A stretch of 20,177 nt of DNA, taken from positions 1-20,177 of IMG/VR virus record IMGVR_UViG_3300032241_000194; one strand, written 5' to 3'. Position 1 is the stretch's first letter; each line of letters starts with the position of its first letter. This document shows, one piece after another, positions 5,215 to 20,177 of this stretch. The notes below the pieces were generated by a model that was not told the DNA's origin, did not search any database, and worked only from the letters and a program-made list of their open reading frames with translations. A program made the translations under genes and the position numbers. Origin of the DNA: a virus.

Positions 5215-6423
5215 TTAATTATCCGCCCGAGGTTTTAATGCTTGACTTAATGCCTGTCTCTCTTCGACAACTTTTCCGTTAATGGTTGCAGTATTAGTAT
5301 TGTTAATAAACCCTGATTTTTGAGTTTGTCGAACTGGTTTACCAGCAAATACCCCACTAGCAACATCTTGTTGACCAAATTGATTCATGGTCATCTGAAC
5401 ATTTTTTTCATATAAATTCCAGACATTACCATCGAATCTATATAATGCATTAGGCATATAATCAGTACGAAGATAAAATGCACCTGTTGCTGGATTGACA
5501 GTAAAAGTTATTCCCGAATCAAACGGAGCAGCATTAGGTGGAACACCATCTCCTGTCAAATAACCAATATATAAATTTTTTGTAGGAGTATGTAACACTA
5601 CACTAGCATCTAACACTGCTTGTTCTGTGCTAGCATCATCCATCATGCCGCTGGCATCAGCCACATCGACCAATCCTGATTCTACAGTAGGAATAATATA
5701 AAAACTTCTAGTATTATATCCGCTGACAGGAGCATCTAGCATGGCCTGTTCAACAATTTGATCATTAATGGCTATAGACTGATTATAAGTACTCATTAAA
5801 TCACGCAGTGTGCTTCCATCTTGATTTCCTGCATCTGCGTTAAAGATTTGGCTAAATTCTTGACTGTCTACTAATGGTACACATTTAGCTCTTAATAAAT
5901 GAGGATACCAAGTTTGGCTAAATCCTGACGTAGGACGACTAACATCCTGCACCACATAAAATCTTTTTAATGCTACTAAATTATTATCTAATGCGTATTC
6001 GTCTTTTAAATGCGGTAATTCTATAACATCGCCGGGCATTATTTTTCTTTGTAATAGTTCAACAGTACTGCGCAGATGAAAATGCATTAGAACTGTATCA
6101 TTTTGCAGGAATAATCCAAATTGACTTAGATTAAAATCTAAATCCTGCATTTGATAAATTCCTCGAATAGCATAAACATCGGGACTGTAATTTCTATCTC
6201 TATTTTCCATGAATAACACATCTTGTATACCTAATTCAGGAACTGAATTATTGCTATTATTTGGAGTAGTAGGTGAAGAAGTGCCATCTTCTGGAGTTAC
6301 AGACCCTAAAAATTTGTGTATAAACACATCTGTGCCGCCCACTTGAAATTCTTCATTAATAGTGCGATCTAAAAACTTAAAATCGGCACCTTTTTCTGGT
6401 TTATACATAGATAGTCTTGGCAT
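5215..6423 (-). CDS. gp14: Neck protein gp14-like (402 aa)
   Basis: gp14 works with gp13 in the neck below the portal, where it makes the head competent to accept a tail. The sequence resembles the gp14 form of marine T4-like phages: YKPEKGADFKFLDRTI near the N-terminus, VGGTDVFIHKFLG (28-40), ENRDRNY (73-79), LSQFGLFLQND (99-109), GDVIELPHLKDEY (131-143), GFSQTWYPHLLRAKC (167-181) and PLVDSQEF (183-190), ending in ERQALSQALKPRADN. It is much longer than T4 gp14 (256 aa). An FDG-x-x-W module (330-335) lies in the C-terminal part. It is the first gene of a minus-strand operon with gp15. The start codon is 7 nt from a late promoter motif and lacks a Shine-Dalgarno. A second in-frame ATG five codons later is possible. 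Confidence 0.85.
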   Translation of the reverse strand: MPRLSMYKPEKGADFKFLDRTINEEFQVGGTDVFIHKFLGSVTPEDGTSSPTTPNNSNNSVPELGIQDVLFMENRDRNYSPDVYAIRGIYQMQDLDFNLSQFGLFLQNDTVLMHFHLRSTVELLQRKIMPGDVIELPHLKDEYALDNNLVALKRFYVVQDVSRPTSGFSQTWYPHLLRAKCVPLVDSQEFSQIFNADAGNQDGSTLRDLMSTYNQSIAINDQIVEQAMLDAPVSGYNTRSFYIIPTVESGLVDVADASGMMDDASTEQAVLDASVVLHTPTKNLYIGYLTGDGVPPNAAPFDSGITFTVNPATGAFYLRTDYMPNALYRFDGNVWNLYEKNVQMTMNQFGQQDVASGVFAGKPVRQTQKSGFINNTNTATINGKVVEERQALSQALKPRADN

Positions 6424-6430
6424 AGTATTG

Positions 6431-6438
6431 TATTTATT
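6431..6438 (-). promoter_or_regulatory. Late promoter AATAAATA of the gp14 operon
   Basis: Read on the minus strand, AATAAATA ends 7 nt before the gp14 ATG. In T4 the TATAAATA motif spans about -13 to -6, which places transcription start only 2 nt before the start codon. No Shine-Dalgarno is present. It forms a divergent promoter region with the fibre promoter at 6480. Confidence 0.6.
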
Positions 6439-6479
6439 GAACTATTGTTCGACGCAGGATGCAAGTTAAACAAATACGG

Positions 6480-6486
6480 CTAAATA
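6480..6486 (+). promoter_or_regulatory. Late promoter CTAAATA of the collagen-like fibre
   Basis: CTAAATA lies 36 nt before the fibre ATG at 6523. The predicted mRNA would have a leader of about 30 nt containing the AGGA Shine-Dalgarno. The motif is in the short non-coding gap (6424-6522) between the divergent gp14 and fibre genes, where a promoter is needed. Confidence 0.55.
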
Positions 6487-6512
6487 TTGATACGATTACC
6501 AAATAACACTCT

Positions 6513-6516
6513 AGGA
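6513..6516 (+). promoter_or_regulatory. Ribosome binding site deciding the fibre start
   Basis: AGGA is placed 6 nt before the ATG at 6523. It supports that start over an in-frame TTG at 6487, which would lie at or before the predicted transcription start and has no ribosome binding site. Confidence 0.65.
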
Positions 6517-6522
6517 AAATCT

Positions 6523-8763
6523 ATGACTACAACATCCACTACAACATCTACACAAGGCGTGCAGGGATCCCAGGGATCTCAAGGAATTCAGGGTAGGCAG
6601 GGGACGCAGGGTTATATTGGTGGCCCAGGCACACAAGGCAGCTCAGGATTAACTGGATCGCAAGGAGGTCAAGGTGTGCAAGGCAGACAAGGTACCCAAG
6701 GATATAATGGACCTCAAGGCGCCATTGGTATTCAAGGTTCCATTGGTAGTCAAGGATTAATAGGCACTGGCCTACAAGGCAGTCAAGGTGCTGGTGGATC
6801 CACTGGCATTCAGGGAGGTGTTGGCGTACAGGGATATAGCGGTATACAAGGAATACAAGGATTACTAGGCCACCAGGGTACACAAGGCAGTATTGGTGTA
6901 CAAGGATATAGCGGTATATCGGGTATACAAGGATTACCAGGAATACAAGGCATTATTGGCCCTCAAGGTTGGGTTGGCAGTCAAGGTAATGATGGCAGAA
7001 CAGGATTATTAGGACCACAAGGAAGCCAAGGCAGCATTGGCAGTCAGGGCAGTATTGGCAGTCAAGGTGGTCAAGGATCTATTGGACAACAGGGTGTTCA
7101 AGGACAAGTAGGTGCATTTGGTACACAAGGTTCGACAGGTACCGTTGGATCACAAGGTATTCAGGGATTTCAAGGAACACAGGGCTATCAAGGAGCAATT
7201 GGAACACAAGGTATAAAAGGATCTACTGGTACACAAGGTATCTCGGGCTTGCAAGGAATTGCAGGATCTCTCGGGCCTCTAGGACCACAGGGTGCAGTTG
7301 GATCATTGGGTTTAACAGCAGGTACAGGTATGACATTAACTCAATCGTCCGGTACAACTTTTATTTCTCTTGCATCACCATTAACAGCAGGTACAGGTAT
7401 TACATTAACTCAATCATCTGGTACAACTATTATATCTCTAGATACATCATCATTAATAGCAGGAACAGGTATTACATTAACTCAATCATCTGGTACAACT
7501 ATTATATCTCTTACATCGTCTACTTCATCTACAATAACTGTAACTCCGTCTGTGGTTACTTCGAACACAATTCCAACGTTAGCATTAGGTTATACACAAG
7601 CAGAAATTGCCTATTGTACATGTAAAGATTCTTCAAATGTAAATTATGTTAATAATACTAACGGATATGTTCCGACAACTTGGAACCTAAATTACTTGCC
7701 TGGCGATTTACGAAGATACGGCGCCGCATGTAATGGATATATTAGTCTTGGAAATAATCAAGGAGTTGTAGGAACCCCCGACGATACAGCGTTAAATACT
7801 GCTGCTTGGATGTTGTCTAATTACGGGCAAGATATTATCTTTCCTAGTGGATATGTAGTAACACTAAATAGTCCTCATACAATTTCGTGTCCTCCAAATT
7901 TTACTGGTCGTATTGTAGGGTATGGGTCTACTATTGTTTCTAATTATACGGGGACATTATTAACAATTACGTCTCCTTCCCAATATATAAGTTATAGTTC
8001 TCCTCCCCGGTTGACCGCAGCCGCACCTTACGGGGCAGGAATGCAGATACAAGGAATAACATTTTGCCAATTAAATGTTGCTGGAGCAACCGGAGCAATT
8101 TTAGTTAACGGTCCTGCTTGGCATGTTACAATCGAAAACTGTGCGTTCCTTGCATGGGGTGGTAGTACAGCTTATTCCGCAATTACATTTTCCGAATCTA
8201 CTCAAGGTAATGCGGCTACTGCACCGCTTTACAGTAGGGTGAGAAATTGCCAATTTAATAGTGCGCAGCAAGCAGGAACAGCAGCAAATTACATGCCAAA
8301 AGCAATTACATTATTAGGTCAGTGTAATGCTACGGTTATAGAATCATCAACATTTGCACAAGTTACTAATGCAATATATTTTCAACCACCTAATCCAGGA
8401 TATACAGGTAGTGGAACTTTAACTAATTGGAGTGCGTTATCTAATGGTGTTTCTATCACTAACAATTCTTTTGAGAACGGAAGCAATGCAATTTATGTTA
8501 ACGGAGGAACAACAGGAGGAACATGGAATAAAGGATGGGGATTAGCTGGATTAATAGTTACAAATAATCGTGCAGAAAACTTAACTACTTCCTTTTTAAA
8601 TTTAAATGGTTTTAATTCTACCACAGGAACATATGCAACATTTGTTTCTGGAAATTTTGCATTATTGTCTTCAGGAATTCCGGTTGTAGTAAATCCAAAT
8701 AGCTTGCCAATTCATACTTACACTGGTGCTATTTCAGTAACTACAATTACAGACCAAGTATAA
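6523..8763 (+). CDS. Collagen-like fibre with tailspike-type beta-helix domain (746 aa)
   Basis: The predicted fibre has four parts. Residues 1-11 are a Thr/Ser-rich head. Residues 12-263 are 83 Gly-X-Y triplets, most with Gln in the third position, broken only once by a two-residue Gly-Thr step (81-82); this should form a rod-like triple helix. Residues 264 to about 335 hold three near-identical repeats with the core AGTGITLTQSSGTTIISL. The C-terminal part (about 397 to the end) starts RRYGAACNG, then DDTALNTAAW (420-429) and IFPSGYVVTL, the usual opening of right-handed parallel beta-helix domains in tailspikes and pectate-lyase-like proteins, followed by Asn- and Gly-rich coils. Such domains often bind or cut polysaccharide, but no catalytic residues can be assigned. 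It is probably a second receptor-binding fibre or neck/capsid fibre, divergent from gp14. Confidence 0.85.
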   Translation: MTTTSTTTSTQGVQGSQGSQGIQGRQGTQGYIGGPGTQGSSGLTGSQGGQGVQGRQGTQGYNGPQGAIGIQGSIGSQGLIGTGLQGSQGAGGSTGIQGGVGVQGYSGIQGIQGLLGHQGTQGSIGVQGYSGISGIQGLPGIQGIIGPQGWVGSQGNDGRTGLLGPQGSQGSIGSQGSIGSQGGQGSIGQQGVQGQVGAFGTQGSTGTVGSQGIQGFQGTQGYQGAIGTQGIKGSTGTQGISGLQGIAGSLGPLGPQGAVGSLGLTAGTGMTLTQSSGTTFISLASPLTAGTGITLTQSSGTTIISLDTSSLIAGTGITLTQSSGTTIISLTSSTSSTITVTPSVVTSNTIPTLALGYTQAEIAYCTCKDSSNVNYVNNTNGYVPTTWNLNYLPGDLRRYGAACNGYISLGNNQGVVGTPDDTALNTAAWMLSNYGQDIIFPSGYVVTLNSPHTISCPPNFTGRIVGYGSTIVSNYTGTLLTITSPSQYISYSSPPRLTAAAPYGAGMQIQGITFCQLNVAGATGAILVNGPAWHVTIENCAFLAWGGSTAYSAITFSESTQGNAATAPLYSRVRNCQFNSAQQAGTAANYMPKAITLLGQCNATVIESSTFAQVTNAIYFQPPNPGYTGSGTLTNWSALSNGVSITNNSFENGSNAIYVNGGTTGGTWNKGWGLAGLIVTNNRAENLTTSFLNLNGFNSTTGTYATFVSGNFALLSSGIPVVVNPNSLPIHTYTGAISVTTITDQV
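7312..7514 (+). repeat. Three tandem coding repeats in the fibre
   Basis: Copies begin at 7312, 7381 and 7453 (periods 69 and 72 bp) and encode the same beta-type segment. Copies 2 and 3 share a run of almost 50 identical bases, which suggests a recent duplication or ongoing homogenisation by recombination. The block links the collagen-like rod to the beta-helix domain. Confidence 0.85.
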
Positions 8764-8782
8764 TTAATAAGATAAAAATATT

Positions 8783-9493
8783 ATGAACGAAACAGAAAAT
8801 GAAAGACAAAAAGTAGTAGAATACATTCAAGCAATGTTAGGATCAGGTATGATTGACGTCGAACTAGATCCTGTTCATTATAATACTGCTATAGATCGTT
8901 CATTAAATAAGTTCCGTCAACGCAGCAGTAACTCTACTGAAGAAAGTTTTGGTTTCATAACTATACAGCCTGGAGAAAATGATTACGTTCTTCCTAAAGA
9001 AGTGATGGCAGTTAGACAATTATTTCGAAGAAGTATAGGTTCGCGTACCGGCGGCGGAGACGGCGGTAGTTTGTTTGAACCATTTAATTTAGCTTATTCC
9101 AACACCTATCTTCTAGCATCGACTAACATGGGTGGACTAGCAACTTACTATGCCTTTGCCAGTTATCAAAAACAAGTAGGTAAAATGTTCGGTAGCGATA
9201 TTAATTTTACTTTTAATAAAACTACTAAATTATTAACTCTCATGCAAAGACCATATGCTTCAGAAGAACTACTAGTATGGATGTATAATTATAGACCAGA
9301 TTTTAATTTATTGCAGGATCCTCAGGCATCGCAGTGGTTGCGTGATTATAGTTTGGCCACTTGTAAGATTATATTAGGTGAAGCCCGAGAAAAATTTGCG
9401 ACCATTGCTAGTCCTCAAGGTGGTACCCAATTAAATGGAGCAGCACTTAAAGCAGAAGGTAAAGCCGAAATAGAAGTCTTAGAAGCAGACTAG
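8783..9493 (+). CDS. gp13: Neck protein gp13-like (236 aa)
   Basis: gp13 forms the neck ring under the portal together with gp14 and is needed for head-tail joining. Supporting features are the N-terminal helix with VVEYIQAMLG and ELDPVHYNTAIDRSLNKFRQR (about residues 27-47), typical of gp13-type connector proteins, then PGENDYVLPKEVMAVRQLFRR (63-83) and a C-terminal LLVWMYNYRPDF followed by helical SQWLRDYSLATCKIILGEAR. It is shorter than T4 gp13 (309 aa). It lies 19 nt after the fibre gene and reads away from gp14, its partner in the T4 order. No clear Shine-Dalgarno is visible; GATAAAAA just upstream might be a degenerate late promoter, but I do not call it. Confidence 0.75.
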   Translation: MNETENERQKVVEYIQAMLGSGMIDVELDPVHYNTAIDRSLNKFRQRSSNSTEESFGFITIQPGENDYVLPKEVMAVRQLFRRSIGSRTGGGDGGSLFEPFNLAYSNTYLLASTNMGGLATYYAFASYQKQVGKMFGSDINFTFNKTTKLLTLMQRPYASEELLVWMYNYRPDFNLLQDPQASQWLRDYSLATCKIILGEAREKFATIASPQGGTQLNGAALKAEGKAEIEVLEAD

Positions 9494-10214: not shown

Positions 10215-10533
10215 GATCCCCTTGCCTCCAACGAACACCATCTTTATGCAAGACTCGTTGGCAGTTAGCACATACTGTTTTAAGATTTGTAAATCTACAA
10301 TTCGTTAAATTTCCGTCTATGTGAAACACATTAAATGTTTCTGTATGTGGAGATTTAAATCCACATCGATCACAAGTTGTCTTTTTTTGATATCCTGCCA
10401 ATGCCCATAATGGCCGGGTGGTTGTATTTCCTCTAGCGCAGTGATCGCATCGAGATCTATAAAATGCCTTACCCTTTTTATAGTAGTTTATAGCAACAGG
10501 CCGTTCTCCACATTTTTTACAAAGTTTTCTCAT
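10198..10533 (-). CDS. HNH endonuclease-like zinc-finger protein (111 aa)
   Basis: The protein has two paired Cys-x-x-Cys zinc-binding sets: C5/C8 with C29/C32, and C54/C57 with C88/C91. Between the second pair is FHIDGNLTNCRFTNLKTVC, which fits the HNH/endonuclease VII-like nuclease core (H71, N75, N83). It is a small stand-alone HNH protein like those found as free-standing endonucleases between late genes of T4-like phages. Possible roles are homing, nicking during packaging, or a non-catalytic DNA-binding protein. I chose the ATG at 10533, which has AAAGGG 6 nt upstream, over an in-frame TTG at 10560. It opposes its neighbours: its 3' end overlaps the kinase gene by 17 bp and its promoter diverges from that of gp18. 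Confidence 0.8.
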   Translation of the reverse strand: MRKLCKKCGERPVAINYYKKGKAFYRSRCDHCARGNTTTRPLWALAGYQKKTTCDRCGFKSPHTETFNVFHIDGNLTNCRFTNLKTVCANCQRVLHKDGVRWRQGDLTPDF

Positions 10534-10563: not shown

Positions 10564-10570
10564 TATTTAA
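10564..10570 (-). promoter_or_regulatory. Late promoter TTAAATA of the HNH gene
   Basis: On the minus strand TTAAATA lies 30 nt before the HNH ATG. The predicted transcript would start around 10558 and its leader would hold both copies of the duplicated ribosome binding site. It is back to back with the gp18 promoter 22 nt away. Confidence 0.45.
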
Positions 10571-10592: not shown

Positions 10593-10600
10593 CATAAATA
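10593..10600 (+). promoter_or_regulatory. Late promoter CATAAATA of the sheath-tube unit
   Basis: CATAAATA is an almost exact T4-type late promoter 32 nt before the gp18 ATG, in the short non-coding gap between divergent HNH and gp18. The predicted leader of about 27 nt includes a strong Shine-Dalgarno. It should drive gp18 and gp19 up to the terminator at 14406-14432. Confidence 0.65.
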
Positions 10601-10617
10601 AAACAAAGTAATCCATT

Positions 10618-10623
10618 AAGGAG
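10618..10623 (+). promoter_or_regulatory. Strong ribosome binding site of gp18
   Basis: AAGGAG, 9 nt before the ATG at 10633, is the strongest Shine-Dalgarno in the window. This fits the high copy number required of the sheath protein. Confidence 0.75.
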
Positions 10624-10632
10624 ATCGACACA

Positions 10633-13600
10633 ATGGCCACATTAGCATCACCAGGCGTATCAATATCAGTAACCGATGAAAGTTTTTATACTTCATCTGG
10701 TCCAGGAACTGTACCACTAATTTTTGTTGCGTCAGCAGAAAATAAAAAGAATTCTTCGGGAACAGGAATAGCACAAGGTACAACTCCTGCATATGACGGC
10801 CAAATTTGGTTGATCACTAGCCAAAGAGATTTAGTAGATACTTTCGGAACACCGTTGTTTTATACTGATTCTAGCAATAATCCTGTAAATGCAGGCGAAC
10901 AAAATGAATACGGATTACAAGCAGCTTATAGTTTATTAGGAATTACTTCACAAGTTTATGTAGCTCGCGCACCGATCGATTTAGGAGCATTATCTGCATC
11001 AACTAGTATTCCTGAAGGACCTCCTGTAGCAGGTACATATTGGTTAGATACTAACTCCAGTGCTTTCGGCATTGAAGTATGGAATGCTAGTGGTCGCGGT
11101 TCGTTTAGCTCAGTAACACCTTTAATCATAAACAATGACAACACTGCTACATCATTGACTGTTGGAAATTCAGGAATACCATTAGATAGTTTCGGTACAC
11201 CTGGAAGTTATGCCGTTGTCGTTACATCAGATAATGACGCAACAATGCCGCAATCAGTATGGTACAAAACTACAGCTACTAACAACTCTTGGGTAGAAGT
11301 TGTTGATTATTTCGCTGGCGGTGCAAATCAAAGTACTGTAAGAGTAACGGTTAGCCCACATACACAATACCCCGATTATAATAATACTACTCCTACTGGA
11401 AGTATTTGGATTAAGACAACTCCCCCAGGAAACGGAGCTAATTGGGTTATTAAAAATTACAGTGGTGTGACAAATACATGGAACACCGTAAATGCACCTA
11501 TTTACAATAGCACAGTGCAGGCAATTAGCCAACTAGATCGTGCAGGCGGCGGAACAAATATTCCTGCTGGCACATTGTTTGTTGAATCTGATCCTACTCA
11601 CAGCTTCCTTAGCGGCGGCGCAGTTCGTTCAGAATTTAAAGTATGGAGAAGACATGCCACTAGCCCAACAACAATAACTAGTGCTCCATCTACTGCTGTT
11701 AATCCATCCACTGCAGAATTTACTATTAGAGAGACTTCTAATAACACATCAACATGGGGTCCGGTTGTAACTATTACAGTACCCCCAGGTGGTGGATTTT
11801 ATATCGGTTCGTTGATAGCTTCTGCTATTAATACATCCGGATTGGTAAATGTCAGTGCATCATTTGACAGCAATACTAATAGATTATCTTTAACACATAA
11901 ACTAGGTGGTGATTTTGAAATTTTAGATGGCGTAAATAATCCATTAGCTAATGCAAACTTATATTCCACTAGTGTAGCTAATTTATATGCTGCTCCCGCG
12001 TATGACGATAACGGCTTCGGTAGCGGATTCATTGCTTCGAATTGGAAACCACTGGTTTATGAAGCATCGAATAATACTCCATATACATTACCAGATAATG
12101 GTACATTATGGTATGACGCAAGACTACATGATGTAGATATCATGATTAATGATGGTAGTAAGTGGGTAGGATATAAACATTATAACGGATTCCTAAATGG
12201 GTTAACCAACGGAGTTAACCACACAGATCCAAGCGGTCCGATAGTAAGTGCTACAGAACCTACTACTCAACAAGACGGCTCAACTGCATTAGCAGATGGA
12301 GATATTTGGGTTGACACTTCAGACATCGATATGTATGGAAAGAATGTTTATGTATACGATGGCACAGTGCTTAAATGGATCCAACAAGATGTAACTGACC
12401 ATGTCAGTCCTAACGGTTGGGTATTCTATGATGCTCGTTGGTCAGATAATGGTCAAGATGATATGGAATATGTAACTCCTATTTCAGATCTATTAGTCAG
12501 CAATTATGTAGATCCAGACGTTGTTGATCCTGCATTGTATCCAAAAGGTACACGTCTATGGAATCTACGTCGTTCAGGATTTACAGTTAAGAAGTATGAA
12601 GCAGGTTACATTAATATCAATGCTAATAACGGATTAAATGCTGCATATGGCAATGATATTATGAATGGTGCTTCACCATACAGCTTAGATCGTTGGGTAT
12701 CGATTAGCCCAAATAATGATATGGGTGTAGGAACTTTTGGTCGCCTTGCACAACGCTCAGTTGTTGTTAAAGAATTAAAGTCATTTGTTGACACTAATTT
12801 AAAAATTCGTGACACTGATACTGTAAACTTTAACTTAATTGCTTGCCCGGGCTATCCAGAAATGATTAGCAATATGGTAGGCCTAAATACTGATAGAGGA
12901 TTAACTGCACTAGTTGTAGGTGACACTCCTTTTAGATTAGAAGGCAATGCTAATGCGTTAACAGCATGGGGAACAAATTCAGCCAATGCTGCTGACAATG
13001 GTGATGACGGACTAGTAACTAAGGATACATACACAGCAGTATGGTACCCAAGCGGAAGAACTACAGACAATAGTGGAAATAACATTGTTGTTCCTTCCAG
13101 CCATATGATGTTAAACACTATCATTAATAGTGATAATGTCAGCTATCCATGGTTTGCTCCTGCAGGAACTAACCGAGGTAAAATTATTAACGCATCTAGC
13201 GTAGGTTATGTCGACTCGGTTACAGCAGAATTTAAAACAGTATCTCTATATCAGGGATTACGTGATGCGATGGCACCATTAGAGATTAATCCAATTGCTA
13301 CAATTCCTGGAGTAGGACTAGTTAGCATGGGTCAATATACACTATCTCCTGTTGCTAGTGCATTGGATCGTATTAATGTTGCAAGATTAGTAGCATACTT
13401 ACGCCAAAAACTGCCTTTAGCGGTCAAGCCATTCTTGTTTGAGCCCAATGATAGTCAAACACGCAATGAAGTCAAAGCCGCCGTGGAAAGTATTTTAACT
13501 ACTTTAGTTGGTCAACGTGCTCTCAACGATTTCGTTGTAGTATGTGATAGCAGCAATAATACTCCTACAAGAATTGACCAAAGTCAATTATGGGTAGACA

Positions 13601-14385: not shown

Positions 14386-14405
14386 TTAACATTAAATTGT
14401 TAATA

Positions 14406-14432
14406 AAAAGCCGGGCAACCCCCGGCTTTTTT
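14406..14432 (+). terminator. Intrinsic terminator after gp19
   Basis: A perfect 10-bp stem, AAAAGCCGGG with CCCGGCTTTT, encloses a 5-nt loop and is followed by a short T run. It ends the sheath-tube unit and lies 4 nt before the next late promoter. A weaker AT hairpin (14386-14403) lies directly upstream. Confidence 0.9.
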
Positions 14433-14436
14433 ATTG

Positions 14437-14444
14437 GATAAATA
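14437..14444 (+). promoter_or_regulatory. Late promoter GATAAATA touching the next start codon
   Basis: GATAAATA is followed by only 5 nt before the ATG at 14450. With the T4 geometry (motif from -13 to -6) the transcript would begin at the A of the start codon. No Shine-Dalgarno exists. It lies directly after the gp19 terminator. Confidence 0.65.
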
Positions 14445-14449
14445 TTGCT

Positions 14450-15571
14450 ATGAGTAATGCCTTTACAAATTTCCTTAGTGGGTTAGGCAATGGCCTATTG
14501 GGTAATGGCGGCGCTAGTATGAAAGATTACCAGCACGCCAATAGACTTTATGTAGAAAATAACTATTCTCGTACTCCCAAAGTTGGGTTTCTTTATTTTA
14601 TTAATTTTAACATAAATCCAACGGTATTAAGCAGCCTTCCTTCCACTTCTTGGATTAAAAGAAAGCATTATAGAGATGTAGGGTTACTAGTAAAAGAAGT
14701 AGATCAACCTAAATTCACAGTACAAACAGAAACATTAAATCAGTATAATAGAAAAACGGTTGTACAAACTAAAATAGTTTATCAACCAGTTAGTATAAAA
14801 TTTCACGACGACAACAGCGATATTAGTAACAATCTTTGGACAACGTATTATCATTATTATTACATGGATGGTGTATACGGTGCTAGTAATAACGGAAAAT
14901 TAAACGACCCTCAATATGGAAATACAAAATTTCAACCGGTCAATTATCCTTATGGTCTAAACAATAATCAAAATTATCCATTTTTTGATAGCATTGACAT
15001 TTATGTTTTACACAGGGGCCATGGCGAATCTGATTTTACGCAAATGACATTGGTTAACCCACTAATTACAGAATGGGCACATGATAGTTTAAATCAAGAT
15101 GAAGGTAATAAAATACTAACTAATAGAATGACACTGTCTTATGAATCTGTAATATATAATCAAGGAAAACTTAAAAGAGGAAATCCTCGAGGATGGGTTC
15201 CGATTTATTACGATACTACTCTTAGTCCGATTAAATCCAGCATTGATAGTCTGGGAGGTGTACTTACCGGATTTAATGATATATTTGGAGAAAACGGATC
15301 CCTAGCCAATGCTTCTAGTCCATTAGATTTAATAGGAGTAGCATTGCAAACAAAAAATTTATTTCAAGGAACTACCGCTCTGGTGAATTCCGGACAAGCC
15401 GCACGACAAGGATACAGTATATTAGGTGGTGTACTAGCAGGATCGGCCGTAGCAGGGTTAGCCACTCCATTTCCTAACAATAATTCTTCTGGTATTCTTA
15501 GTACTAACAATTCCAGTGTTAATGGGACTACTCAAGCAACACCATCTACAGTGGCAACTAAAGGACCTTAA
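14450..15571 (+). CDS. Tail-tube-fold structural protein, possible tube initiator or baseplate protein (373 aa)
   Basis: The middle of the protein has the pattern of the phage tube/tube-initiator fold: VGFLYFINFNINP (45-57), VGLLVKEVDQPKF (77-89), NQYNRKTVVQTKIVYQPV (98-115) and SIKFHDDNS (115-123), then FDSIDIYVLHRG and a strand-rich RMTLSYESVIYNQG. The last ~110 residues are Gly/Ala/Ser/Asn-rich and probably flexible. I infer a protein at the tube end or baseplate, comparable in role to T4 gp54 or gp48, but I cannot say which, and direct homology to either is not evident. An internal ATG at codon 24 (MKDYQHANRLY) has no better ribosome binding site. It opens a unit continuing through gp4 and gp16, with the promoter 5 nt from its start. 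Confidence 0.6.
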   Translation: MSNAFTNFLSGLGNGLLGNGGASMKDYQHANRLYVENNYSRTPKVGFLYFINFNINPTVLSSLPSTSWIKRKHYRDVGLLVKEVDQPKFTVQTETLNQYNRKTVVQTKIVYQPVSIKFHDDNSDISNNLWTTYYHYYYMDGVYGASNNGKLNDPQYGNTKFQPVNYPYGLNNNQNYPFFDSIDIYVLHRGHGESDFTQMTLVNPLITEWAHDSLNQDEGNKILTNRMTLSYESVIYNQGKLKRGNPRGWVPIYYDTTLSPIKSSIDSLGGVLTGFNDIFGENGSLANASSPLDLIGVALQTKNLFQGTTALVNSGQAARQGYSILGGVLAGSAVAGLATPFPNNNSSGILSTNNSSVNGTTQATPSTVATKGP

Positions 15572-15573
15572 CT

Positions 15574-15954
15574 ATGGCCTCATTATACACAAATTTACCA
15601 CCAGTATCTAATAATAATGCTAATGCCGGTAGTGTTTTACAGGCTGTAGCTAATTATTATGCGGCACCTATTCAGCTGGATGCTAACGTCTTAACTGCAA
15701 TAATTAGTTTTTTTACTCAACGAGGGTTTGATACAACTGCGGCACAGGCATTGGCAACAGTGATTATTAGTCAAGCAAGAAAAGATAATCTTAATCCTTT
15801 GCAAATTGTTGATACTATGAAAGGATTAACTAATGTAGAGATTAGTGCATTGGTAGCAGAAATAATCAATTATACTAGATACAAAACTAGTTTTTTAGGA
15901 TACGGTCAAACATATATTACTAATGCCACAGTGAACAGAAATGTTTTACCATGA
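15574..15954 (+). CDS. Small structural-module protein of unknown function (126 aa)
   Basis: No family with known function is recognised. The protein is largely helical: an N-terminal Asn-rich stretch, then helices with LQAVANYYAAPI, VLTAIISFFTQRGFDTTAAQALATVIISQARK and EISALVAEIINYTRYKTSFLGYG, and a hydrophilic C-terminus. There is no signal peptide or membrane span. AAGGA lies 8 nt before the ATG, inside the end of the preceding gene, which ends 2 nt upstream; its stop codon overlaps the gp4 start (ATGA). The tight coupling between a tube-fold protein and the head completion protein suggests a virion or assembly role. I recall similar small proteins in this position in other marine T4-like phages, but without an assigned function. 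Confidence 0.7.
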   Translation: MASLYTNLPPVSNNNANAGSVLQAVANYYAAPIQLDANVLTAIISFFTQRGFDTTAAQALATVIISQARKDNLNPLQIVDTMKGLTNVEISALVAEIINYTRYKTSFLGYGQTYITNATVNRNVLP

Positions 15955-16394
15955 GTTTAAAGTTTAGTCAAGGTACTTATAAATTAAAAAATCCCGAAAA
16001 ATATATGGGCAATAGAATGCCTTTATATAGAAGCAGCTGGGAATATACTTTTATGGCATTCTGTGATAATAATCCCAGTATACAAGAGTGGGTCAGCGAA
16101 GGAGTAAAAATTCCTTATAGAGATCCATTAACTGGAAAACAAACAGTATATGTTCCAGATTTTCTTATTACATATATTGATAAAAACATGAAAAAGCATG
16201 TGGAATTAATTGAAATAAAACCTGCTAACCAAATGTTAAGAGAACGTATAGGTAAAAATCCCTATAATCAAGCACAGTATGTAAAAAATATGGCTAAATG
16301 GAAAGCCGCAGGAATCTGGTGTAAAAATCAAGGCATACATTTTCGGGTAATTAACGAAACAGATATTTTCCACAATGGATCCAAAAAGAAATAA
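15951..16394 (+). CDS. gp4: Head completion protein gp4-like (147 aa)
   Basis: In T4, gp4 (gene 50/4) acts on the filled head before tail joining. The sequence follows the T4 protein closely in pattern: NPEKYMGN (14-21), YRSSWEYTFMAFCDNN (26-41), WVSEGVKIPYRDP (47-59) and YVPDFLITY (67-75). The arrangement E31, PD (69-70) and EIK (88-90) fits a PD-(D/E)XK nuclease-like fold, with all key residues present; whether it cuts DNA is not known from the sequence. The start overlaps the previous stop (ATGA) and gp16 follows after 8 nt, so it is part of one cotranscribed unit. The length is close to that of T4 gp4 (about 150 aa). Confidence 0.88.
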   Translation: MSLKFSQGTYKLKNPEKYMGNRMPLYRSSWEYTFMAFCDNNPSIQEWVSEGVKIPYRDPLTGKQTVYVPDFLITYIDKNMKKHVELIEIKPANQMLRERIGKNPYNQAQYVKNMAKWKAAGIWCKNQGIHFRVINETDIFHNGSKKK

Positions 16395-16402
16395 GTAGTA
16401 TT

Positions 16403-16873
16403 ATGACTAAACGACTAGAAGAAGTATTAAACATAGCACCTACAGAAGAACCTGTAATAGAGCCAACTCCTGTAGTAGAACAACAGGTAATTAATCTTCA
16501 AGATAAATTAGAAGAATTTGATAAAATTGCATCTGCATTACCCCGTGTAAAAGGTCTAGGAGACATGGCAGATGCAGAGTTCGATGCATTGGCAGCTAAA
16601 GCAGAACAGGCCTATGATGATCTGATGGATTTAGGAATGAATGTAGAAGCTAGATACGGATCCCGTATGTTTGAAGTAGCTGCTAACATGATGAACGCTG
16701 CTATTGCTGCTAAATCTGCTAAGATTGACAAAAAGCTAAAAATGATTGATTTACAGCTAAAAAAATTAGCTCTTGATAAGAAAAATAGCAATAATGACAC
16801 CGTAGAGGGCGAAGGATACATACTTACAGACCGTAATAGTATCCTGGAAAAACTCAAGAATTTGAATAAATAA
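16403..16873 (+). CDS. gp16: Terminase small subunit gp16-like (156 aa)
   Basis: The small terminase subunit forms a ring that regulates the gp17 motor and recognises DNA for packaging. The protein has a low-complexity Pro/Glu/Val N-terminus (about 13-28), then helices ending in RYGSRMFEVAANMMNAAIAAK (84-104) and a strongly charged coiled-coil-like segment (about 105-128, KIDKKLKMIDLQLKKLALDKK), the central oligomerisation helix expected for gp16. Its length matches T4 gp16 (164 aa). There is only a weak Shine-Dalgarno; the gene follows gp4 by 8 nt. Unusually, two other genes separate it from gp17, which has its own promoter. The last codons and stop overlap the late promoter of the next gene. 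Confidence 0.85.
   Translation: MTKRLEEVLNIAPTEEPVIEPTPVVEQQVINLQDKLEEFDKIASALPRVKGLGDMADAEFDALAAKAEQAYDDLMDLGMNVEARYGSRMFEVAANMMNAAIAAKSAKIDKKLKMIDLQLKKLALDKKNSNNDTVEGEGYILTDRNSILEKLKNLNK
16865..16872 (+). promoter_or_regulatory. Late promoter AATAAATA overlapping the gp16 stop
   Basis: AATAAATA covers the last codons and part of the stop codon of gp16 and ends 7 nt before the ATG at 16880. Transcription would begin about 2 nt before the start codon. There is no Shine-Dalgarno, so the gene either has a near-leaderless transcript or relies on coupling to gp16. Confidence 0.5.
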
Positions 16874-16879
16874 AACATT

Positions 16880-17476
16880 ATGAAGAATTTTAAAGATTAT
16901 CTATCAGAATCTATCGCCGCCAAGAAACACGAGTTTCGTGTTAAGGTTGCCGGTACTATTACTAAAGAACAAGAAGCAAAACTTGAATCGATATTAAGTC
17001 GATATCAAGTAGATGCTTTTAAAAAATTAAAAACTACCCCAGTTCAATCCTTACCGTTGGATTTTCCACAAGTACGCAACTGCGAAGTAAATATTTTTGA
17101 AGTTGTATTAGGATACCCTACAACACAGCAAGAATTAACAGAATATATCAGTACAGGATTAGGAATTAGTAAACAGAATTTAGCAGTAGTCCGTCCAGGT
17201 GAACCTAGCGAACAATATCAAACTCCAGAAGAAAAAAGAGAAGGCGCTTTATTAGACGATCCCGATTATAAAGAAGCCGGTTCACCAAAATTTGAAGATT
17301 ATTATGGCGACAAATATAACACTGGTTTTGTTAAAGAATTAAATGATATCTTAAAATTACAGCGTAAAGAAAGAGGAGAAGTTATCCCTACAGAAGGTGA
17401 TGCTACTTATCTTACTAACACCCCTGTCTATACCAAGAGTGCAATAGCGCAGGCTCCAGACCCAAGGAAAAAATAA
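16880..17476 (+). CDS. Possible prohead-targeted protein with capsid-targeting-like N-terminus (198 aa)
   Basis: The body of the protein is not recognised. The first eleven residues, MKNFKDYLSES, match in length and pattern the capsid-targeting sequence of T4 internal proteins (MKTYQEFIAEA), which is cut by the prohead protease gp21 after the Glu of an (L/I)-x-E motif. Here L8-S9-E10 is in the same place. The rest has an alpha/beta segment (about 15-105, with VAGTITKEQEAKLESILSRY) that could be a ferredoxin-like domain, then a charged, probably flexible C-terminus (EEKREG, RKERGE). It may be packaged into the head or be a core protein that is trimmed; this is inference. It starts 6 nt after gp16 and is followed at 2 nt by another candidate core protein. 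Confidence 0.65.
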   Translation: MKNFKDYLSESIAAKKHEFRVKVAGTITKEQEAKLESILSRYQVDAFKKLKTTPVQSLPLDFPQVRNCEVNIFEVVLGYPTTQQELTEYISTGLGISKQNLAVVRPGEPSEQYQTPEEKREGALLDDPDYKEAGSPKFEDYYGDKYNTGFVKELNDILKLQRKERGEVIPTEGDATYLTNTPVYTKSAIAQAPDPRKK

Positions 17477-17478
17477 TC

Positions 17479-18474
17479 ATGCAAATGATCGATGTACTAA
17501 AGCGTTTACAAGAATTAGACGCAAATAATTCAAATGTTATTAAAGAATCTACAGTAGAAGAATGTGGTCCTATGGGAATGATGCCTTCGCAACCAAAGAC
17601 TCCTGCTACGATTAATATCACCGCAGATAGCGGCGAAGAATTAGGCAGCATGTTATCTGCTATTATGAAATTAGCTGGTGTTAATAAAGTTGAACCCAGC
17701 CATTTAGGTGTTGAGCATGAGCCAGCTGTAATATCTGCTACACCGTCTTTAGGAGTTGGCCCTTCCGCTAGCGACAGTGAAGTTATGCGCGGCGTAATCG
17801 ATAAGATGAATCCAGAAGTAGACGGTGACGAACTACATCGCTCAGGCGAAGAAGAAACAGACGAAGCGGATTCGCATAGTGCAGAATTCGATAACACACC
17901 TAATGATCCTAGAGATACACCGTCGTTCGATGCTAATGAATATTCTGCACATCCAAATGATGGAGATGGAAATGATAAGCAAGGAAAGCCAAGAACTATG
18001 GCACAACCTGCTGCTTTAGAAGATCGCCTAATGGCAGATTATAAGAAATTTATTTCTGAAGATTGGAGAGATGAAGTATCGGGTGGATCAGATTTTTCTT
18101 TCGGCGTACATAATCCCAATGACGCCCGTATGACTAGCCCCAGAGGAACTGGCATTAGCGCCGGTGGTCTTGGCGGCGGGGATGATGAAGAAGGCGATGT
18201 TGAAAAGCCACAAGTAAAGAAAAAAGAAGAAGCACCTATCGTAGGTAAAGTAGAATTAAATTCTGAGTTAGTAAATCACGCAATTAAAAAATTCGGTCCT
18301 TTAGTAGCTAAACGCAATGGTTGGCAACAAAATGAGAAAGGTGATTGGTTTTTTCCAGTAAGACAAGGAATGAAAGGCGAAAAATTAGATAGTTTACTAT
18401 TACACATGAACACAACTTATGGTAAACCAGGACATCCGTTAGTAGTTGGTAGTAAAGACATGGATGTTACATAA
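17479..18474 (+). CDS. Acidic head-associated protein of unknown function (331 aa)
   Basis: The N-terminal MIDVLKRLQELDANN and the C-terminal domain (about 255-331, FGPLVAKRNGWQQNEKG and MKGEKLDSLLLHMNTTYG) resemble a family I recall only as hypothetical proteins in marine T4-like phages. The centre (about 95-170) is strongly acidic and low in complexity, rich in Asp, Glu, Asn, Ser and Pro, as in scaffold or core proteins. Possible gp21-type (L/I)-x-E cleavage sites include LQE (10-12), IKE (21-23) and, inside ADYKKFISED, ISE (192-194); the last resembles a capsid-targeting peptide in an internal position. AAGGA lies 10 nt before the first ATG; the second, at 17485, matches the usual family start but is spaced less well. 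A strong terminator follows. Confidence 0.7.
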   Translation: MQMIDVLKRLQELDANNSNVIKESTVEECGPMGMMPSQPKTPATINITADSGEELGSMLSAIMKLAGVNKVEPSHLGVEHEPAVISATPSLGVGPSASDSEVMRGVIDKMNPEVDGDELHRSGEEETDEADSHSAEFDNTPNDPRDTPSFDANEYSAHPNDGDGNDKQGKPRTMAQPAALEDRLMADYKKFISEDWRDEVSGGSDFSFGVHNPNDARMTSPRGTGISAGGLGGGDDEEGDVEKPQVKKKEEAPIVGKVELNSELVNHAIKKFGPLVAKRNGWQQNEKGDWFFPVRQGMKGEKLDSLLLHMNTTYGKPGHPLVVGSKDMDVT

Positions 18475-18497
18475 CATATTTTAAGGCGTAGCCACTC

Positions 18498-18525
18498 AAA
18501 TAGGCTCTTCGGAGCCTATTTTTTT
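18498..18525 (+). terminator. Intrinsic terminator before gp17
   Basis: A perfect stem, AATAGGCTC with GAGCCTATT (extended by one A-T pair), is closed by a TTCG tetraloop and followed by a T run. It ends the unit that began at 14437 and lies 1 nt before the gp17 promoter. Confidence 0.92.
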
Positions 18526-18526
18526 G

Positions 18527-18534
18527 ATTAAATA
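18527..18534 (+). promoter_or_regulatory. Late promoter ATTAAATA touching the gp17 start codon
   Basis: The motif is separated from the gp17 ATG by 5 nt, the same distance as at 14437-14450. The predicted transcript starts at the A of the ATG. There is no Shine-Dalgarno, and the terminator just upstream means gp17 needs its own promoter. Confidence 0.6.
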
Positions 18535-18539
18535 ATGAT

Positions 18540-20123
18540 ATGGCGTTAAAGTCACAAAACAAATTAGTTAAAACTGCTCATACTACACAAAAGTTTACTA
18601 ATCAACAAATCGAAGAATTAGCAAAATGTCTGGATCCGGTTAACGGCCCCCATTATTTTCTTGATAATTTCTTTCATATTCAACATCCTGTTAAAGGTAA
18701 GCTAAAGTATACAGCATTTGAATACCAGCGTAGACTTATAGATTCCTATCATGATCATAGATTTAATGTAAACTTATTACCTAGACAGACAGGTAAAACT
18801 ACCACAGCAGCAGGCTATTTGTTATGGTATGCAATGTTTATTCCGGATTCGACTATATTAATTGCAGCACACAAATATACCGGTGCTAAAGAAATTATGA
18901 GCAGAATAAGATTTGCTTACGAACTTTGCCCTGATCATATTAGACCGGGTTGTACCAGTTATAACAAAGAAAGTATAGAATTTGATAATGGTTCGCGTAT
19001 TGTGGCACAAACAACCACAGAAACTACAGGACGTGGTATGTCGCTATCTCTCTTATATGCTGACGAATTTGCGTTCGTACCACCCAATGTCGCTAGCGAA
19101 TTCTGGACCTCAATTTCTCCCACATTGGCCACAGGTGGTAAAGCAATTATTACATCAACACCAAATTCGGATGAAGACCAATTTGCTCTAATTTGGAAAG
19201 AAGCCAATAAAAGATTTGACGAGCATGGTAATACAACTGTATTAGGTAAAAATGGATTTTTTCCATTTAAAGCACACTGGACAGAGCATCCGGATCGTGA
19301 TGAAAAATGGAAAATAGAAGAAATGTCTCGTATTGGCGAAGAAAGGTTTCGTCGTGAACATGAATGCGAATTCTTAGTATTTGACGAGACATTAATTACT
19401 GCTATCAAACTTGCTGATTTAGAAGGAATGGAACCTATAATGAAAATGGGGCAAGTGCGATGGTATAAAAAAATAAATCCTAAATGTACATACCTAGTAG
19501 CATTAGATCCCAGCTTAGGTACAGGCGGCGACCCCGCAGCTATCCAAGTATTGGAATTGCCATCGTTTACCCAAGTGGCAGAATGGCATCATAATACCAC
19601 TCCAATACAGGGACAAACTAGAATATTAAGGGATATTTGTAATTTCATTAATAGCGAATTTGAGAAAAAAGATACTATAGCCAGCTTATATTATTCTATA
19701 GAAAACAATACCGTAGGAGAAGCCGCATTAATATCCATCGAAGAAATTAGCGAAGAAACTATATCAGGTCTATTCCTCAGCGAACCTGTAAAAAAAGGTC
19801 ATGTACGCAGGTTCCGCAAAGGATTTAATACTACACACAGTAGTAAGATCGCCATTTGTGCAAAATTAAAGCATCTTATAGAAACAAATAGAATGAAGAT
19901 TAATTCTAAACAATTGATATCAGAATTAAAGACTTTTGTGGCAAAAGGCATTAGTTTTTCTGGAAAAACGGGCAGTAATGACGATTTAGTTAGCAGTATT
20001 TTATTAGCATTGCGTATGGCTATGATTCTGCAAGAATGGGATCCTGCGGTATATGATAAATTCCGTGAAGAATTTGATAACGAATGGGAAATGCCTTTGC
20101 CCATTTATATAAACACATATTAG
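18540..20123 (+). CDS. gp17: Terminase large subunit gp17-like (527 aa)
   Basis: This is the ATPase motor and nuclease that packages concatemeric DNA into the prohead. The ATPase domain shows Walker A PRQTGKTT (81-88, K86), Walker B LLYADE (171-176, with catalytic E176) and motif III ITSTPN (204-209). The nuclease domain shows the RNase H-like acidic triad: D323 in ALDPSLGTGGD, E388 in SIENN, and D481/D482 in GSNDDLV. All catalytic residues are present, so the protein should be active. It is shorter than T4 gp17 (610 aa), lacking mainly N- and C-terminal extensions. The gene is its own unit: a terminator and a late promoter lie directly before it, and it is transcribed separately from gp16. 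Confidence 0.97.
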   Translation: MALKSQNKLVKTAHTTQKFTNQQIEELAKCLDPVNGPHYFLDNFFHIQHPVKGKLKYTAFEYQRRLIDSYHDHRFNVNLLPRQTGKTTTAAGYLLWYAMFIPDSTILIAAHKYTGAKEIMSRIRFAYELCPDHIRPGCTSYNKESIEFDNGSRIVAQTTTETTGRGMSLSLLYADEFAFVPPNVASEFWTSISPTLATGGKAIITSTPNSDEDQFALIWKEANKRFDEHGNTTVLGKNGFFPFKAHWTEHPDRDEKWKIEEMSRIGEERFRREHECEFLVFDETLITAIKLADLEGMEPIMKMGQVRWYKKINPKCTYLVALDPSLGTGGDPAAIQVLELPSFTQVAEWHHNTTPIQGQTRILRDICNFINSEFEKKDTIASLYYSIENNTVGEAALISIEEISEETISGLFLSEPVKKGHVRRFRKGFNTTHSSKIAICAKLKHLIETNRMKINSKQLISELKTFVAKGISFSGKTGSNDDLVSSILLALRMAMILQEWDPAVYDKFREEFDNEWEMPLPIYINTY

Positions 20124-20131
20124 CATAAATA
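20124..20131 (+). promoter_or_regulatory. Late promoter CATAAATA after gp17
   Basis: CATAAATA begins at the base after the gp17 stop codon and ends 7 nt before the ATG at 20139. It repeats the arrangement seen before gp14 and the gene at 16880, again without a Shine-Dalgarno. Confidence 0.6.
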
Positions 20132-20138
20132 ATTGAAT

Positions 20139-20177
20139 ATGCAGCCTATACAAATAATCAGCCAGGATGTTTTCGAC
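20139..20177 (+). CDS. Start of a further gene, cut by the window edge
   Basis: Thirteen codons are visible (MQPIQIISQDVFD), open to the window end, 15 nt after the gp17 stop and 7 nt after a late promoter motif. Too little is present to name the product. The position after gp17 suggests another late structural gene. Confidence 0.55.
   Translation, partial: MQPIQIISQDVFD

Follow-up and report, generated by a model that had tools for sequence, protein, structure and literature searches.

What starts transcription and translation of a late gene when its promoter-like motif almost touches its start codon? The question is raised by the window analysed here, the 20,177-base IMG/VR fragment IMGVR_UViG_3300032241_000194, in which the hexamer TAAATA, the core of the T4 late promoter, lies immediately before the ATG of several genes. 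The fragment derives from a large T4-like myovirus and carries genes for the tail sheath and tube, the terminase, head completion and the connector. The closest isolate by terminase was the Pseudomonas jumbo phage PA5oct (55%), followed by Phosso, Vibrio 2.275.O and the GAP32/CBB group, and no relative was found in the genome contigs that were searched to identify the host. The evidence makes it very probable that gp55-type late promoters are here fused to start codons and produce predicted leaderless mRNAs for mostly low-copy virion genes, with the sheath, tube and capsid genes being led by a Shine-Dalgarno (SD) sequence. Boxes ending 4-7 nucleotides (nt) before a start codon are referred to as the near class and those at 17-35 nt as the far class, and an SD was counted at >=4 bases. 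The boxes of the window and the two hairpins next to them are as follows.

14439-14444, plus strand: TAAATA core, gap 5 to the ATG at 14450, with the predicted transcription start (+1) on the A of that ATG; gap 4-7 in 50/54 members of the ortholog family.
16867-16872, plus strand: TAAATA core, gap 7 to the ATG at 16880 and overlap with the end of the preceding gene; ortholog family 36 near and 17 far.
18529-18534, plus strand: TAAATA core, gap 5 to the ATG at 18540; ortholog family near in 69/76.
20126-20131, plus strand: TAAATA core, gap 7 to the ATG at 20139; the gene after the terminase is near in 63/66 relatives.
6431-6436, minus strand: TAAATA core from the motif search, gap 7 to the ATG at 6423.
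6481-6486, plus strand: far-class TAAATA core, gap 36 to the fibre ATG at 6523; SD AGGA at 6513-6516.
10595-10600, plus strand: far-class TAAATA core, gap 32 to the sheath ATG at 10633; SD TAAGGAG at 10617-10623, orthologs far in 32/33.
10564-10569, minus strand: far-class TAAATA core, gap 30 to the HNH endonuclease start at 10530; SD AAGG, orthologs far in 25/28.
14405-14433, plus strand: hairpin and T-tract resembling an intrinsic terminator, ending just 5' of the fused promoter (RNA fold -16.6 kcal/mol, z -4.3).
18498-18525, plus strand: hairpin and T-tract terminator by RNA fold, directly 5' of the terminase promoter.

The coordinates that the initial annotation had given for near and far boxes all held on recheck. 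For five of the 18 TAAATA motifs in the window, the gap to an ATG is 5 or 7 nt, whereas 0.04 such matches are expected by chance at 21 starts (Poisson P = 6e-10). The hexamer is depleted in the window as a whole (18 observed versus 40.7 expected, with 100 of 100 shuffles reaching at least the observed count), so AT-richness does not explain the near boxes, in agreement with the initial annotation. No SD of at least 4 bases was scored before the four complete near genes, and none was seen by eye before the fifth, 20139, which is cut by the contig end and whose ATG is preceded by AATTGAAT. All three far units, with gaps of 30-36 nt, carry the SD that had been ascribed to them; the fibre start among these is the ATG at 6523, not the TTG at 6487. 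The order of hairpin, T-tract and promoter before the 14450 gene recurs in most of its relatives listed.

To extend the comparison, 80 viral contigs were retrieved with the terminase as bait, and starts were assigned as the first ATG by a rule blind to the motif, the open reading frame (ORF) caller accepting ATG only. As a result, 1010 genes were obtained, of which 15, 155, 34 and 33 had gaps of 4, 5, 6 and 7 nt, respectively. Together these 237 genes formed a sharp peak at 5 nt, compared with 5 genes in the same count for a reversed motif string. Gaps of 8-16 nt were almost empty, holding only ~12 motifs altogether, and a second, broad class occupied 17-35 nt. An SD was found in 4% of near genes, 85% of far genes and 50% of genes in neither class (near versus far, Fisher p = 2e-63 on counts that include orthologs). 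The initial annotation had expected a peak at 5-7 nt inversely related to SD strength and had named a flat distance distribution as the contrary outcome; it is the former that the relatives display. By pattern alone, the codons found at gap 5 were 169 ATG, 39 GTG, 16 TTG and 5 CTG. Leaderless GUG starts were considered for the GTG matches and rejected, as 38 of the 39 belong to a conserved hairpin element without an ORF and the remaining one opens just 32 codons.

Because the gap counts include orthologs, the proteins were clustered into families, and the near or far class proved to be a property fixed for each gene family. Near families comprised the terminase (69/76), its downstream neighbour (63/66), the 14450 family (50/54) and the gp13-like family, and far families comprised sheath (32/33), tube (43/53) and HNH (25/28); near and far counts are uninformative for very small families, which were not used. 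The 16880 family is mixed and thereby provides a natural experiment, in which an SD was present in 2 of 36 near members versus 12 of 17 far members (p = 2e-6).

Motif position and SD absence are directly observed; the transcription start we infer from T4 geometry and from the pyrimidine-purine step after the box. The T4 late box spans -13 to -6 (PMC1524935), and T4 late promoters have no conserved -35 element (PMC7892883). With the box so placed, a gap of 5 puts the predicted +1 on the A of the ATG, TAAATA beginning at -11 in this class. A pyrimidine-purine step peaks at 5/6 after the box in the leadered late promoters of T4, PA5oct and Syn9 (0.48-0.50), and the base at -1 is a pyrimidine (T or C) in 99% of the gap-5 genes of the relatives. 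The TAAATA core, which also served as the search string, is enriched by position and was the top or near-top positionally enriched hexamer in HTVC008M, a pelagiphage, and in the large relatives G001 and G003. The first two positions of the T4 box TATAAATA are not conserved; in other T4-like phages, -13 has been reported to be weakly conserved. Homologues of the PA5oct late sigma (gp55-type), with 41-48% identity, are encoded by the large relatives G001, G002 and G003, and a gp55-type late sigma is annotated in HTVC008M. An alternative motif of PA5oct, ATTTANAT, lies close to a few starts and was dismissed for lack of genome-wide enrichment.

In several relatives, the gp14-like and gp13-like genes diverge from one spacer of 27-29 nt in which TATTTA and TAAATA stand back to back. 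A scan of IMG/VR with the pattern CAT-N5-TATTTA-N4-TAAATA-N5-ATG, in which the start codons are 26 nt apart, hit 82 contigs, versus 3 for the reversed pattern as control. Both ATGs opened frames of at least 60 codons in 63 of 80 readable cases, covering ~45 protein families. These mirror-image pairs are a plain feature of the DNA, and a spacer of 26 nt leaves no room for an SD leader on either side. One such pair is borne by a 517-kb viral contig (L305:9208-9239), which brings very large phages into the range of the arrangement. In the window, the gp14-like and gp13-like genes are separated by a collagen-like tail-fibre gene (within 6423-8783); the minus-strand half of the promoter is kept at 6431, and on the plus strand the box at 6481 now stands before the fibre gene with its SD. 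This layout appears to derive from a formerly bidirectional leaderless promoter of the gp14-like/gp13-like pair.

The near class is unevenly distributed among phages. It comprised 9-12 genes in each of four large relatives and 11 genes in HTVC008M, where the deposited annotation, made by others, places at least 11 starts exactly 5 nt past a box and where sheath, tube and capsid genes have a strong SD. Contigs related to HTVC008M gave the same peak, with gap 5 in 20 of 494 distinct genes and an SD in 22% of near and 95% of far genes. No gene with a gap of 4-7 nt was found in T4 (0/206 genes), Syn9, KVP40 or GAP32, and one was found in PA5oct. On the terminase tree the trait requires at least two changes, which implies more than one origin or repeated loss, and it is found again in a lineage, that of HTVC008M, separate from the group of the window. 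Aeh1, with a published box CTAAATA at -12, was examined as a leaderless candidate and set aside, as it gave 1 match against 1 for the control. Phage-encoded bS21 was likewise considered as a partner of leaderless translation and discarded, since it showed no association with the near class: it is present in PA5oct, which has hardly any near class, and in HTVC008M, and it was absent from the eight relatives searched, whose contigs are incomplete.

Several side observations belong here. The gp13-like adaptor Ad2 is predicted to be leaderless in the group of the window and very likely in pelagiphages too, where the 276-amino-acid gap-5 genes of L172 and L177 match HTVC008M Ad2 at its start (loci L172, L177, L311). 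The deposited start of the PA5oct terminase (L081:18847-18873; NC_071039 128846) falls inside a terminator hairpin, and an in-frame ATG 27 nt downstream (ATGGCAGCA), also without an SD, is the better start. Near the late region, a conserved element carries a sigma-70-like promoter (TTGACA-N17-TATAGT in some copies) that overlaps a hairpin, CTGTGTATA..TATGCACAG, followed by a T-tract and with TAAATA inside (L030:4150-4220, L053:13950-14030 and other sites); promoter and terminator seem to share the same DNA here.

The alternative that survives best is genome compaction, by which promoters would have drifted onto starts in short intergenic space without forming a functional two-class system. The tight intergenic spaces and the mirror pairs at 26 nt agree with it. 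However, T4, KVP40, Syn9 and GAP32 share the box and have no gap of 4-7 nt, PA5oct having a single one, and neither the nearly empty zone at 8-16 nt nor the fixation of class by gene family fits drift. We regard compaction as unlikely, though still worth serious consideration; since it would also give leaderless mRNAs, it concerns the purpose of the arrangement and not its structure. The box might instead be an A/U-rich translation element, an S1-type or standby site within longer transcripts, and no promoter. It is general knowledge that A/U-rich leaders can substitute for an SD in many bacteria, and the near genes 16880 and 20139 closely trail a co-directional gene. Against this, the large operon-internal families belong almost entirely to neither class (families 3-5 and 9-12 have 0 near members), near boxes often lie directly 3' of an intrinsic terminator, and the same hexamer stands 17-35 nt before SD-led units. 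Moreover, divergent genes only 26-29 nt apart in the mirror pairs have no upstream transcript on either side, and the translation-element explanation is accordingly very improbable.

The starts of the near genes themselves are correct. Near-family proteins are conserved up to, or almost up to, their N-terminus, with residue 1 included in families 1, 6 and 20, and an internal in-frame start with an SD of at least 5 bases inside 40 codons was found in only 6 of 141 distinct near genes, from five families; the possibility raised initially, that homologues would start downstream with good ribosome binding sites, thus failed. That a late promoter is present but the true transcription or translation starts lie elsewhere, at an internal SD or from upstream promoters, draws on the unproven status of metagenomic start codons and on the variable first residues of the terminase, and is rendered scarcely credible by these N-termini and by the four complete window genes, whose ATG is in every case the first ATG, GTG or TTG past the in-frame stop.

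Promoters fused to start codons thus remain the favoured explanation, and the genes of the window to which it applies are listed below.

14450-15571, plus strand: tail-tube-like gene, 373 amino acids, with a predicted leaderless mRNA (PHROG tail tube protein, E 7e-14).
16880-17476, plus strand: 198-amino-acid gene with a predicted leaderless (0-3 nt leader) mRNA; the PA5oct gene in the same position encodes a virion protein.
18540-20123, plus strand: terminase large subunit with a predicted leaderless mRNA (PHROG terminase large subunit, E 6.5e-119).
20139-20177, plus strand: beginning of the following late gene, truncated by the contig end, from a virion structural protein family (weak PHROG match of a homologue).
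5215-6423, minus strand: virion structural gene, 402 amino acids, gp14-like by gene order and predicted to be leaderless (PHROG 11591, E 6e-78); back-to-back leaderless arrangement in relatives.
8783-9493, plus strand: head-tail adaptor Ad2 (gp13-like) gene; 9 of 13 family members have TAAATA at gap 5, and the window copy is degenerate (GATAAAAATATTATG) and without an SD.

In the proposed mechanism, host RNA polymerase carrying a gp55-type late sigma would recognise these promoters, with the -10-like TAAATA box as the sole DNA element needed, and transcription would begin on the start codon or within ~3 nt of it. The resulting late mRNA would be leaderless and without an SD, and would be translated from its 5'-terminal AUG by a 70S-type route. 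Such units would be mostly low-copy virion and packaging genes (terminase, gp13-like and gp14-like connectors, baseplate and completion proteins), and SD-led units with leaders of ~12-30 nt would serve high-copy genes (sheath, tube) and others. Leaderless initiation requires that the AUG be at the 5' end or close to it (PMC9031893). An AUG that functions only there would probably be translated solely on messages begun at its own late promoter, to the exclusion of upstream read-through. Terminators often directly precede the fused promoter; combined with the 5'-AUG dependence, this should limit output and block translation from read-through messages. We infer 70S initiation, low output and insulation alike from these features.

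Some points weigh against this mechanism. No gp55, gp33 or gp45 gene was found on the window fragment, the far promoters of the relatives themselves show a weaker pyrimidine-purine peak, and for gaps of 6 and 7 the geometry would imply either 1-3 nt ahead of the start codon or a displaced initiation point. The SD frequencies come from simple matching to one anti-SD core, which may not be that of the hosts. Finally, the portal gene of G001-G003 is not leaderless.

Sheath, tube and capsid proteins are made in hundreds of copies in T4. In both lineages these genes have a strong SD, and terminase, connector, baseplate and completion proteins tend to be leaderless. The suggestion that SD-led units are high-output and leaderless units low-output therefore fits two lineages, but with a low-copy portal that is not leaderless it stands as a tendency and not a rule. 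Somewhat more tentatively, at slightly less than even chances, one kind of promoter in environmental T4-like phages may feed two late translational classes: SD-led mRNAs for bulk proteins, and leaderless mRNAs, from 14-bp promoter-plus-start and 26-nt bidirectional cassettes, for stoichiometrically limited virion parts translated only from their own promoter. Late-only expression would then be built into the sequence.

These findings predict leaderless mRNAs as a regular late-gene class in abundant, mostly uncultured phages including SAR11 phages, supply a sequence rule for annotating start codons and operons, and describe a minimal bidirectional expression cassette. They also allow tests of how leaderless mRNAs compete for ribosomes in late infection and of whether the type of leader determines virion stoichiometry. 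Leaderless genes with a TA box and T4 late promoters are each known, and their combination was found in no report; searches limited to an open-access library turned up no account of start-codon-fused late promoters, leaderless late mRNAs or mirror-image leaderless pairs in T4-like phages. The T4 late promoters (TATAAATA, gp55/gp33/gp45) share the core and its distance to the predicted start, and the relatives encode a late-sigma homologue. However, the T4 box mostly lies 12-35 nt before the start codon and is followed by an SD, whereas here a quarter to half of the start-proximal TAAATA promoters are fused to the ATG, with no conservation at positions -13/-12. Lambda cI is a single repressor gene under a host sigma-70 promoter, in contrast to the class of late structural genes described here. 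Its mRNA is a leaderless phage message starting at the AUG (PMC9031893, PMC3160421). In bacteria, leaderless genes are marked by a TA-like signal ~10-12 bp ahead of the start codon (PMC3160421); they have the same geometry and SD absence but use a sigma-70 -10 box for cellular genes, where the phages use a late-sigma box for one late class, including back-to-back pairs. Large phages such as phiKZ and AR9 also have short late promoters, and in the phiKZ late motif TATG the G is the transcription start (PMC5312081), but their polymerases are phage-encoded multisubunit enzymes and AR9 leaders measure 26-491 nt. Among pelagimyophages, HTVC008M and its relatives share the gap-5 class; a published search for middle and late promoters in this group was unsuccessful (PMC7029224), and the fusion of promoter and start codon may be one reason for that outcome.

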